Shown: positions 13,060 through 56,208 of the stretch, one piece after another
Position numbering within the stretch: position 1 is the stretch's first letter
Layout: the number at the start of each line of letters is the position of its first letter
From: an uncultured Psychroflexus sp.
Lineage (GTDB): Bacteria > Bacteroidota > Bacteroidia > Flavobacteriales > Flavobacteriaceae
Direction: 5' to 3'
DNA length: 59,003 nt
Assembly: GCA_913062845.1 (NCBI GenBank)
Contig: CAJXVZ010000015.1
Coordinates: forward strand, 1-59,003
Position numbers and translations under genes: made by a program
Notes under the pieces: generated by a model
Database searches by the model: none
The model's input: only the letters and a program-made list of their open reading frames with translations
Told to the model about the DNA's origin: nothing

Positions 13060-13884
13060 ATGCCTGTAAAAAAATTAAAACCAATAACGCCAGGTCAGCG
13101 ATTTAAAGTAGTAAATGGCTTCGACACGATTACTACTGATAAGCCGGAAAAGTCTTTACTTGCTCCGTTAAAAAAATCTGGTGGTCGAAACAATCAAGGA
13201 AAAATGACTATGCGCTATCGCGGTGGTGGTCATAAGAGAAGATATAGAATCATCGACTTTAAGCGAAACAAAGTCGACATGGATGCTACCGTAAAATCTA
13301 TTGAATATGATCCAAACAGAACCGCTTTTATCGCGTTAGTTCAATACACGGATGGTGAGAAAAGATATATAATTGCTCCAAGCGGATTGAAAGTTGGTCA
13401 GACTGTTAAATCTGGTGATAATGCATCTGCCGATATAGGAAATGCTTTACCACTTTCCAATATTCCTTTTGGATCTATAATTTCTTGTATAGAGCTGGTG
13501 CCCGGAAATGGTGCTGTTATGGTAAGGAGTGCCGGAACATTTGCACAACTTGTTGCTAAGGAAGGTAAGTATGTAACTATTAAGTTGCCTTCGGGTGAAA
13601 CACGTTTGATATTATCAGATTGTAAAGCAATGATAGGTGCTGTTTCTAATAGTGATCATCAATTGTTAGTTTCTGGTAAGGCAGGACGAAGCAGATGGTT
13701 AGGTAGAAGACCAAGAACAAGACCGGTTGTTATGAACCCTGTTGATCACCCAATGGGTGGTGGTGAAGGTAGAGCTTCGGGAGGTCATCCAAGATCAAGA
13801 AAAGGTATACCTGCAAAAGGCTTTAAGACCAGGTCACTTACTAAATCAAGTAATAAACATATTTTAGAACGTAAAAAGAAATAA
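13060..13884 (+). CDS. rplB: 50S ribosomal protein L2
   Basis: A 274-residue L2, required for subunit association and close to the peptidyl transferase centre. [15 protein letters not shown] and the C-terminal [14 protein letters not shown] with the conserved histidine (GGHPRSRKG) are intact. Confidence 0.97.
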
Positions 13885-22705: not shown

Positions 22706-22771
22706 TTTTAATATTTAACAACTTGGTTATCGAAGGAAAGACCTTAATTCATAACCGCAAATAAATTTTTT

Positions 22772-55378: not shown

Positions 55379-55538
55379 GGTATTTATTAATTTATTTTAA
55401 TTTGGTTTTAATGCATGTGTAAAGATAAAACAAATCAAAAGAGTATCAGGTATTGTATGTCTGATTTTAGAGACATTGGCTAACCTGAATTTTTTTAAAT
55501 TTTAATGGTAGATAAATTTTTTATATCCAAAAAAATAT

Positions 55539-55546
55539 TAATTTTG
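55539..55546 (+). promoter_or_regulatory. Candidate promoter of the tRNA-Arg region (-7 element TAATTTTG)
   Basis: TAATTTTG followed by CAGTCCG. It is the only plus-strand TAnnTTTG match I found between the DUF4199 gene and the tRNA. If used, its transcript would pass through all three tRNA-like copies before reaching the real tRNA, 265 nt away. Confidence 0.4.
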
Positions 55547-55563
55547 CAGTCCGATTTGTGAAA

Positions 55564-55606
55564 GGTTGCATAGCTTCCTGAAATAAATTCAGGACAAGCA
55601 GCATAA
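55564..55606 (+). repeat. Degenerate tRNA-like copy with TCCTGAA palindrome
   Basis: GGTTGCATAGCT resembles the tRNA-Arg 5' end GGTCGCGTAGCT (10 of 12 bases). It is followed by a 7-bp hairpin TCCTGAA-ATAAA-TTCAGGA (55576-55594) and an AAGCAG word as in the anticodon arm. It reads as a diverged relative of the two exact copies downstream. Confidence 0.5.
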
Positions 55607-55608
55607 AA

Positions 55609-55673
55609 GGTCGCGTAGCTCAGCTGTCCCGAAGTTTCGGGATGCCTTCTAAGCAGACCATGACATATTGAAA
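55609..55673 (+). repeat. Chimeric tRNA-Arg copy A
   Basis: GGTCGCGTAGCTCAGCTG is identical to tRNA-Arg positions 1-18. The palindrome TCCCGAAGTTTCGGGA (55627-55642) replaces the rest of the D arm, then TGCCTTCTAAGCAGAC repeats the anticodon arm exactly. The sequence then departs (CATGACATATTGAAA); no T arm or acceptor 3' strand exists. It is identical to copy B over all 65 nt. Confidence 0.85.
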
Positions 55674-55720
55674 ATAAAATACCAGTGTTGGGGTTGAGAA
55701 TCCCAGTCAAGCTGGAATAA

Positions 55721-55785
55721 GGTCGCGTAGCTCAGCTGTCCCGAAGTTTCGGGATGCCTTCTAAGCAGACCATGACATATTGAAA
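55721..55785 (+). repeat. Chimeric tRNA-Arg copy B
   Basis: Same 65 nt as copy A at a distance of 112 nt, ending 34 nt before the real tRNA. The preserved blocks are the tRNA 5' half and anticodon loop CTTCTAA, joined by the 7-bp palindrome TCCCGAA-GT-TTCGGGA (55739-55754). The 5' strand of the anticodon stem is altered, so only 3 bp of that stem can form. Confidence 0.85.
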
Positions 55786-55819
55786 TTTACAACTACAGAT
55801 AAGTAGTTTACATAAATCC

Positions 55820-55893
55820 GGTCGCGTAGCTCAGCTGGATAGAGCATCTGCCTTCTAAGCAGACGGTCACAGGTTCGAATCCTGTCGCGATCA
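55820..55893 (+). tRNA. tRNA-Arg (anticodon TCT)
   Basis: A 74-nt cloverleaf: acceptor GGTCGCG / CGCGATC (one G-U pair), D arm GCTC...GAGC, anticodon arm TCTGC-CTTCTAA-GCAGA with anticodon TCT, T arm ACAGG-TTCGAAT-CCTGT, discriminator A. The CCA end is not encoded. It reads AGA (and possibly AGG) codons, which are common in the surrounding genes. A strong terminator begins 10 nt downstream. Confidence 0.96.
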
Positions 55894-55903
55894 CGACTAG
55901 CAC

Positions 55904-55935
55904 AAAACCACGCTGAATTTTCAGCGTGGTTTTTA
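55904..55935 (+). terminator. Intrinsic terminator of tRNA-Arg
   Basis: Perfect 14-bp stem AAAACCACGCTGAA / TTCAGCGTGGTTTT with a 2-base loop, running into further T residues. Confidence 0.88.
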
Positions 55936-55953
55936 TATTTTAGACCAGCGTCA

Positions 55954-56060
55954 AAAGCAAGCTTTTGTAAGCGCAGGCTAAAATATAAAAACCAGGACTG
56001 CGATAGCAGTGGTTTTGTATTTCCAGCATTGAGCGCATTCAGGATCTGTAATCCTGATCA
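55954..56060 (+). repeat. Downstream repeat unit 1 (terminator-related)
   Basis: Starts AAAGCAAGCTTTTGTAAGCG and contains the hairpin ACTGC-GATA-GCAGT, GTGGTTTTGTA, TTTCCAGC and a GATCTGTAATCC tail. The complement of its middle (ACAAAACCAC...TGGTTTTTATATTTTAG) matches the tRNA terminator and the bases behind it, so it is an inverted relative of that terminator. Unit 2 repeats it at an offset of exactly 120 nt over the first 66 bases. Confidence 0.8.
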
Positions 56061-56073
56061 ATTACCTTTTTCT

Positions 56074-56208
56074 AAAGCAAGCTTTTGTAAGCGCAGGCTA
56101 AAATATAAAAACCATAACTGCGATAGCAGTGGTTTTGTACACGCCTGCCGGGCAGGCCAGGTTTCCAGCTTTGAACGCATTCAAGATTTGTAAGCCATTC
56201 GCGATCAC
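56074..56208 (+). repeat. Downstream repeat unit 2 with inserted GC palindrome and tRNA 3'-end echo
   Basis: Bases 56074-56139 repeat unit 1 with two substitutions near CCATAACTGC. Then GCCTGCC-G-GGCAGGC (56143-56157), a perfect 7-bp palindrome, interrupts the unit before TTTCCAGC resumes at 56162. It ends TCGCGATCAC (56199-56208), identical to the tRNA 3' end plus the next base (55885-55894). Confidence 0.8.

Follow-up and report, generated by a model that had tools for sequence, protein, structure and literature searches.

What are identical chimeric copies of tRNA halves doing in front of an intact tRNA-Arg gene? The arrangement lies in a 59,003-nucleotide stretch of DNA from an uncultured Psychroflexus sp. 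(GenBank assembly GCA_913062845.1, contig CAJXVZ010000015.1, positions 1 to 59,003; hereafter the window). An original prediction, made from the letters of this stretch, offered two readings of the copies: RNAs transcribed with the tRNA and serving as decoys or tRNA-half-like molecules, or a mobile palindromic repeat that had captured tRNA sequence. Here we follow the arrangement through the draft genome of the window (G000, 155 contigs), its congeners and other Bacteroidota.

Chimeric units at the tRNA-Arg(UCU) locus

The window does contain chimeric tRNA-half copies preceding a real tRNA-Arg gene (Table 1), as had been predicted. The two complete units are 100% identical across 67 nt, two more than the 65 nt first given, and the tRNA 30-45 portion of both is TGCCTTCTAAGCAGAC, whereas the spacers behind them are unlike each other in sequence. 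The diverged third unit had also been recognized correctly; its palindrome is altered on both arms, TCCTGAA/TTCAGGA versus TCCCGAA/TTCGGGA in units 1 and 2. The strict palindrome pattern occurs at two sites in the window versus none in 100 shuffled sequences. When we searched the G000 draft genome with positions 55550-55950, we found no further copies of the window units, so that the prospect of an ordinary repeat with many copies far from tRNA genes did not materialize. The window locus itself yielded no GIY-YIG open reading frame (ORF).

Table 1. Features of the tRNA-Arg(UCU) locus, in window coordinates
Feature	Position	Strand	Description
Promoter-like element TATTAATTTTGCA	55536..55548	+	Upstream of all three units
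Decayed third unit	55564..55603	+	tRNA 1-12 with 2 mismatches (55564-55575), palindrome TCCTGAAATAAATTCAGGA (55576-55594), short tail
5' fragment unit 1	55607..55673	+	tRNA 1-18 (55609-55626), palindrome TCCCGAAGTTTCGGGA (55627-55642), tRNA 30-45 (55643-55658), tail
5' fragment unit 2	55719..55785	+	tRNA 1-18 (55721-55738), palindrome TCCCGAAGTTTCGGGA (55739-55754), tRNA 30-45 (55755-55770), tail
Intact tRNA-Arg(UCU), anticodon TCT	55820..55893 (end 55893/4)	+	RF00005 match, 72.2 bits
Terminator-like perfect inverted repeat, 14-bp arms	55904..55933	+	Downstream of tRNA-Arg
Weak candidate for a decayed 3' remnant (T arm)	56040..56056	+	Score 18, marginal
Decayed 3' remnant of tRNA-Arg, positions 48-75, ending CGCGATCAC	56181..56208	+	Score 26

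Co-transcription of the units with tRNA-Arg(UCU) is likely, because the promoter-like element stands before all of them and the 34 nt up to its end are identical in four genomes (G000, G010, G011 and G014). We call the element promoter-like on the basis of TAnnTTTG, which we take to be the Bacteroidota consensus. The original prediction had further remarked that the 3' part of the tRNA is missing. This holds for the window units but not for the pattern as a whole, since 3' halves occur downstream of many tRNA genes, including the remnant at 56181-56208. The prediction had overlooked these downstream remnants, along with a similar layout around roughly half of the G000 tRNA genes examined.

Two other features of the window may be recorded here. 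Past the tRNA-Arg terminator lies a 30-nt direct repeat, TCAAAAGCAAGCTTTTGTAAGCGCAGGCTA (55951-55980 and 56071-56100), and by eye we saw look-alikes with different stem letters behind a tRNA-Arg (L023) and a tRNA-Pro (L074). An S4-Flavobacteria ribosomal protein leader (RF03141) is located at 22725-22756.

Partial self-copies beside tRNA genes

For a survey of whole genomes, the sequence of each tRNA was sought within 700 nt of its own gene (E <= 0.005, intact tRNAs masked). Partial self-copies accompanied 17 of 32 distinct tRNA genes in G000, where a few of the 35 tRNA matches in all lie at contig ends and fall outside the 32. They accompanied 12 of 39 distinct genes in the congener G010, 2 of 35 in the congener G020 and, in a Bradyrhizobium control (G433), 1 of the 31 tRNAs examined out of 51. 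Antisense and reversed tRNA queries gave no match in any of these four genomes, and queries with the sequence of another tRNA gave a single match each in G000 and G010. Self-fragments of tRNAs are thus a multi-locus pattern in G000 and not local to the window; G020 shows that the pattern can be almost absent within the genus.

The fragments have a polarity. In G000, all 15 upstream matches fell in the 5' half of the tRNA and 15 of 16 downstream matches in the 3' half. Exceptions were more numerous in G010, with 8 upstream matches from the 3' half (beside 14 from the 5' half) and 3 downstream matches from the 5' half (beside 26 from the 3' half); much of this stems from arrays. One G010 match, at a tRNA-Arg with anticodon tcg (L324), looks like chance. 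A typical upstream piece, found before tRNA-Val, reads GGGTGCGTAGCTC-tcccgatagttatcggga-TGGTTTAGAGCATC, and a typical downstream piece, after tRNA-Val, reads GTCAGGGGTTC-ccccgaagcttcgggg-CCTTCGCACCCAC.

Palindromes often take the place of the D, anticodon or T loop of a fragment. Anticodon-arm versions occur at tRNA-Asn of G010 and tRNA-Arg of G018, and by eye the replacement extends to two arms in a number of fragments (L132, L156, L173 and L179 among them), while some of the short 3' pieces are uninterrupted. Fragment junctions cluster at the D loop and the T loop in a histogram that includes loci selected by pattern; the fragment list from G000, G010 and G020 is free of such selection. Two arrays stood out for their form. 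At L287 (G010), 3' ends of tRNA-Lys (positions 58-74), each after the same TTTATGCTGAGCTTGTCGAAGTA stretch, are arrayed between and behind two tRNA-Lys genes. The longest array of D-loop type that we met, L276 (G171), comprises 11 matches, ten of them listed 67-68 nt apart.

Palindromes in and around the fragments

Perfect palindromes with arms of length 6 or more were found in or beside 18 of 23 fragments versus 23 of 336 control windows in G000, 20 of 42 versus 19 of 231 in G010, and 2 of 2 versus 3 of 27 in G020. About half of the G010 fragments therefore have no perfect palindrome, which counts against a homing origin, though 12 of those 22 belong to a single tRNA-Lys array, which was counted from each of two tRNAs.

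The palindrome by itself does occur elsewhere: the strict TCCCGA...TCGGGA form has 29 sites in G000 (the pattern read backward has none), 11 of them within 200 nt of a listed tRNA. Three further strict sites at the end of contig C21 stand, by eye, beside tRNA-Arg-like sequence. The palindromes belong to several sequence families, among them TCCCGA/TCGGGA and CCGCCTGAGGCGG, and nested palindromes are present (L051). A palindrome of the same family at 13195-13212 of G000 contig C37 (L098) lies in what by eye appears to be a cobalamin riboswitch leader.

Small GIY-YIG ORFs beside tRNA genes

A PF01541 search of G000 and eight congeneric genomes yielded 55 distinct small ORFs of the GIY-YIG family. 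Almost half of them (27/55) lie within 700 nt of a tRNA gene, and all 27 are on the strand of that tRNA; the binomial tail for this proximity is 3e-31 if some 2% of the genome, by our estimate, is that close to a tRNA. The other 28 have no tRNA within 700 nt, which counts against homing. Among the 27, 22 adjoin a tRNA gene with self-fragments, the exceptions being L043, L262, L269, L271 and L273. This count leaves out the pattern-selected loci that inflate another version of the same linkage (44/50).

Two layouts recur. In the downstream form the order is tRNA, terminator, GIY-YIG ORF and 3' half; in the upstream form it is 5' half, GIY-YIG ORF and tRNA. In several loci the end of the nuclease ORF falls inside the tRNA fragment. 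The tRNA-Asn locus of G010 combines upstream 5' pieces with two units of nuclease plus fragment and has nearly the same palindrome throughout. Most tRNA fragments are without a GIY-YIG ORF.

The eight tRNA-linked proteins that we scanned are short, 87-121 aa from stop to stop, and PF01541 scored above its cut-off in all of them. In these eight, Pfam revealed no separate DNA-binding domain; an extra T5orf172 match in two of them overlaps the same stretch. Homing enzymes usually carry a separate DNA-binding part. The catalytic residues are kept among 47 tRNA-linked sequences (Tyr in 44/45, the two Tyr-x-Gly positions in 45/46 and 45/46, Arg in 45/46, Glu in 41/42), and dN/dS was about 0.08-0.23 in the 8 pairs, out of 10, that had usable dS, with dS itself mostly above 1. 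Judged by these residues and low ratios, the tRNA-linked ORFs look like working genes.

The phylogeny of the nucleases follows tRNA identity in part. A tree of 76 GIY-YIG proteins under 18 labels, "no tRNA" included, required 26 label changes against a shuffled mean of 44.7, and none of 200 shuffles was as low; the tree was built on only 93 columns, its tRNA-Met label mixes tRNA types, and the label of L014 was set by hand. Clustering was evident for Asn (4 changes versus 12.3), Phe, Arg-tct and Leu-taa, with no shuffle of 500 as low, although three of the four Leu-taa rows come from one locus; Arg-acg, Cys and Ala did not cluster. One clade with support 100/96 has eight of its nine rows at tRNA-Asn, spanning Bacteroidales to Psychroflexus, and the ninth lies 3.4 kb from a tRNA-Asn. 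Asn-linked ORFs nevertheless occupy at least three places in the tree. ORFs without a tRNA mostly keep to themselves, 25 of 29 falling in two clades of their own. A structured-RNA search at gathering scores, covering 20 of the 26 tRNA-less GIY-YIG loci, gave as its sole match a group I intron at L206, a Nitrospirota record.

Distribution across Bacteroidota

Scanning one genome per species for a D arm joined to a palindrome gave at least 119 loci, of which we analysed 80. Of the 89 D-loop matches in these 80 loci, 57 have a tRNA on their own strand no more than 600 nt downstream, and in 53 the agreement with that tRNA reaches 11 or more of 13 nt; the other 32 are without such a tRNA in the stretch examined. 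Chance matches are expected in a scan of this size, and we therefore count only those beside a matching tRNA. By record title, the tRNA-linked loci among the 80 analysed belong to Bacteroidota or Balneolaceae with one exception, a Candidatus Gracilibacteria MAG in which three copies stand ahead of tRNA-Met. The tRNA-linked Bacteroidota records represent several classes. In an even draw of the phylum, the strict D-loop pattern was present in 13 of 395 genomes and its backward control in 1 of 395. The strict pattern is one spelling among many, and its exact form is uncommon per genome.

The corresponding T-loop pattern was found in 7 of 80 genomes of the family, and its backward control in none of the 80. 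A tRNA lies upstream of 17 of its 21 distinct matches; every one of these 17 agrees with the 5' (T-stem) side of that tRNA at 9 or more of 10 nt, while 11 agree with the 3' end as well. The pattern stands beside a matching tRNA in G000 and in four other genera (G439, G445, G468 and G486). In two further genera the match was by eye a D-arm piece (G444) or had no tRNA near (G450).

Viruses were considered as a vehicle and set aside: six viral contigs match the D-loop pattern, but none has a same-strand tRNA downstream of the match. In the literature searched, by titles and the starts of abstracts and with few subscription journals covered, we found no earlier description of palindromed tRNA halves.

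Occupied and unoccupied loci in relatives

A single pair of genomes offered an occupied and an unoccupied version of one locus. In the close relatives G009 and G012, the flanks of a tRNA-Arg gene are 85% and 96% identical, and G012 is about 200 nt longer ahead of the tRNA. The extra stretch holds a 5' fragment with palindromes in its D and anticodon arms and is without a nuclease.

At the window locus, G000, G010, G011 and G014 share the upstream genes and promoter region and carry different fragments. G000 has the two D-arm-type units, of which G010 retains a decayed trace. A 5' piece upstream is combined with a nuclease and a 3' piece downstream in both G014 and G011, the 5' piece of G011 being short. 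G020 has one similar unit, and the tRNA-Arg of G009, in different surroundings, has none. At 67-74% identity in a test gene, these relatives are too distant for fine mapping of events.

One locus of G009 (L258) looked at first sight like a freely moved element, with a GIY-YIG ORF of the tRNA-Arg clade between tRNA-Arg fragments and no intact tRNA. More than 1 kb of the tRNA-Arg downstream flank is also present there, which indicates that a larger segment was duplicated; the locus is therefore no clear demonstration of mobility.

A proposed homing origin for the fragments

We propose that the window units are relics of selfish elements of the GIY-YIG homing type that targeted tRNA genes, together with nuclease-free, tandemly amplified derivatives, an explanation to which we give an even chance of being right. 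Fragments, polarity, palindromes and the linkage of the nuclease to tRNA and fragment are there to be seen in the genomes; from them we infer cutting, homing, immunity through the palindrome and the descent of the window array from such an element. By placement and partial clustering in the tree, the tRNA is a putative target of the adjoining nuclease.

The nuclease would cut its cognate tRNA gene in the conserved loops, and repair would copy the element in. Because the element would supply a replacement half, an intact tRNA gene would be restored and the old half displaced. The displaced half would retain, or require, a palindrome where its D, anticodon or T loop had been, and the palindrome would also destroy the nuclease site there. 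Arrays like that of the window could then arise once the nuclease is lost and recombination amplifies the units in tandem. Several observations weigh against this mechanism. The presumed cut site is still present in the regenerated tRNA, and homing therefore needs some rule by which self-cleavage is avoided. The window locus yielded no nuclease, the one occupied and unoccupied pair differs by an insertion that lacks one, and five of the 27 ORFs near tRNAs have no fragment beside them. Nearly fragment-free G020, the scatter of Asn-linked ORFs in the tree and the catalytic-domain-only proteins count on the same side. Homing also leaves a single common palindrome motif across targets unexplained.

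A broader, joint reading can be put forward only tentatively, and we lean against its holding in full: much of the Bacteroidota complement of small, single-domain GIY-YIG proteins would consist of homing nucleases for tRNA genes, with every lineage adapted to a single tRNA; these nucleases would persist in essential genes without intron or intein by way of a replacement half-gene; the displaced half would be uncuttable through a palindrome in the cut loop; and the window array would be a nuclease-free derivative.

Known systems resemble parts of what we describe. Downstream of the E. coli tyrT tRNA stand 178-bp tandem repeats, each with a piece of the tRNA 3' end. The likeness to our loci lies in the tandem units behind a tRNA, each with its 3'-end piece; tyrT is one locus, and we know of no palindromed loops or GIY-YIG gene in its repeats.

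A parallel to the nuclease is SegB, a GIY-YIG enzyme of T-even phages described as cutting inside tRNA genes with the aid of a motif, RAWTSGAAC, and as required for tandem amplification of tRNA-Tyr together with segB (PMC13096335). In our own reading, the reverse complement of this motif, GTTCSAWTY, appears to fit the tRNA T loop, and many of our downstream fragments start or are interrupted at the T loop. As with SegB and other free-standing GIY-YIG homing endonucleases, the nuclease gene stands beside tRNA genes, and in the SegB system tRNA and nuclease are amplified in tandem, with microhomology between the 5' end of the tRNA and the 3' end of the nuclease (PMC13096335). SegB differs in belonging to phages and, in the portion of that account available to us, in having no palindromed broken halves reported (PMC13096335), whereas the Bacteroidota ORFs that we scanned consist of the catalytic domain only.

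For the replacement half, the precedent comes from the mORFs of fungal mitochondria (atp6, atp9, cox2 and nad3 of Allomyces/Glomus), endonuclease elements that, as far as the source was available to us, enter a gene and bring a replacement 3' end (PMC3630166). The matching feature is the displaced native end beyond the nuclease, which in our case takes the order tRNA, GIY-YIG ORF and a fragment from about position 8-20 to 75, with shorter fragments at other loci. Unlike the mitochondrial protein genes entered by mORFs, as the same portion of the source describes them (PMC3630166), the targets here would be bacterial chromosomal tRNA genes, either the 5' or the 3' half may be displaced, and loops are turned palindromic.

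Alternative explanations

The most durable alternative does without homing. Slippage or recombination would make partial tandem copies, only a copy that leaves the tRNA intact would survive, interspersed palindromes would land in the spare piece, and GIY-YIG genes would be passengers. Since most fragments are without a GIY-YIG ORF, tandem duplication and palindrome insertion could indeed explain fragments without homing. The several palindrome families and the nested palindromes agree with this explanation, and the arrays, spacer included, are plainly tandem, as in the array of G171 and in G018, where two matches are 86 nt apart. We nevertheless consider duplication and decay doubtful, as it leaves unexplained why 27 of the 55 small GIY-YIG ORFs adjoin tRNAs, invariably sharing their strand and often lying between gene and fragment, why nuclease clades track tRNA identity, and why palindromes occupy the same loops across many genera.

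A functional leader RNA, in which units transcribed with the tRNA act as decoys, regulators or processing signals, is in our judgement improbable. It would make sense of the promoter-like site upstream of all units and of the one palindrome that has changed and still pairs. The predicted leader fold beats all 100 shuffles (z -4.65), largely from the palindromes and from pairing between repeats, yet the intact tRNA pairs its acceptor, anticodon and T arms within itself and has its D arm in another hairpin. The units are poorly conserved at the window locus within the genus, moreover, and many tRNAs show no unit. The decoy or tRNA-half function suggested in the original prediction is thus left unsupported, and of its two readings the mobile element is favoured.

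Scars of attachment sites, left at tRNA genes by integrase-type elements such as genomic islands or prophages, are a very improbable source. The integration of genetic elements has been named among the origins of tRNA gene fragments; the account, in the portion open to us, describes partial and non-canonical tRNA genes close to such elements, takes Thermococcaceae as its worked set and nowhere in its main text uses the terms Bacteroid, Flavobacter, GIY-YIG or homing (PMC9897764). At one of our loci (L021 216-1418, G015), an ORF that by eye resembles a tyrosine recombinase comes immediately after tRNA-Arg(tct). Integration should, however, duplicate an uninterrupted block, whereas loops have been replaced in the copies described here; many of these are 5' halves, they frequently occur more than once, and at many loci they stand tens of nucleotides away from the gene.

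Palindromic repeats can be mobile in their own right, the palindromic elements of Rickettsia and the GC clusters of yeast mitochondria being other examples. REP/RAYT palindromes mobilized by a Y1 transposase might have captured tRNA pieces, and G000 does contain three matches to Y1_Tnp, two of them strong and one weaker. We hold this to be highly improbable: six exact tRNA-palindrome strings do not occur in the 2-3 kb examined on the flanks of the three Y1 genes of G000, which have other inverted repeats, and the fragment-rich G010 has only weak Y1 matches. Short inserted palindromes with shared sequence are a likeness to REP/RAYT systems as described in the parts of the source available to us (PMC3733652); unlike those and other palindromic repeats, the palindromes here are concentrated in broken tRNA arms, with no Y1 link found at the three Y1 loci of G000. 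An assembly artefact, conceivable in a draft of 155 contigs, is hardly credible given that the two spacers of the window differ in sequence and that comparable arrays turn up in G010, assembled as one contig, and in G171 within a single contig of 3.67 Mb; the single-contig G020 has a comparable unit.

Conclusion

The pattern is suggestive of a selfish element whose targets are tRNA genes and which spares a working copy. If true, this would explain the small GIY-YIG genes beside tRNAs in Bacteroidota together with the tRNA pieces and palindromes around them, and selfish DNA could occupy essential RNA genes without splicing. The cognate tRNA, the cut loop and the resistance conferred by the palindrome would be predictions whose sequences are ready for testing. 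Annotators of tRNAs and small RNAs would also be warned that fragments of this kind should probably be read as scars, not as tRNA genes.
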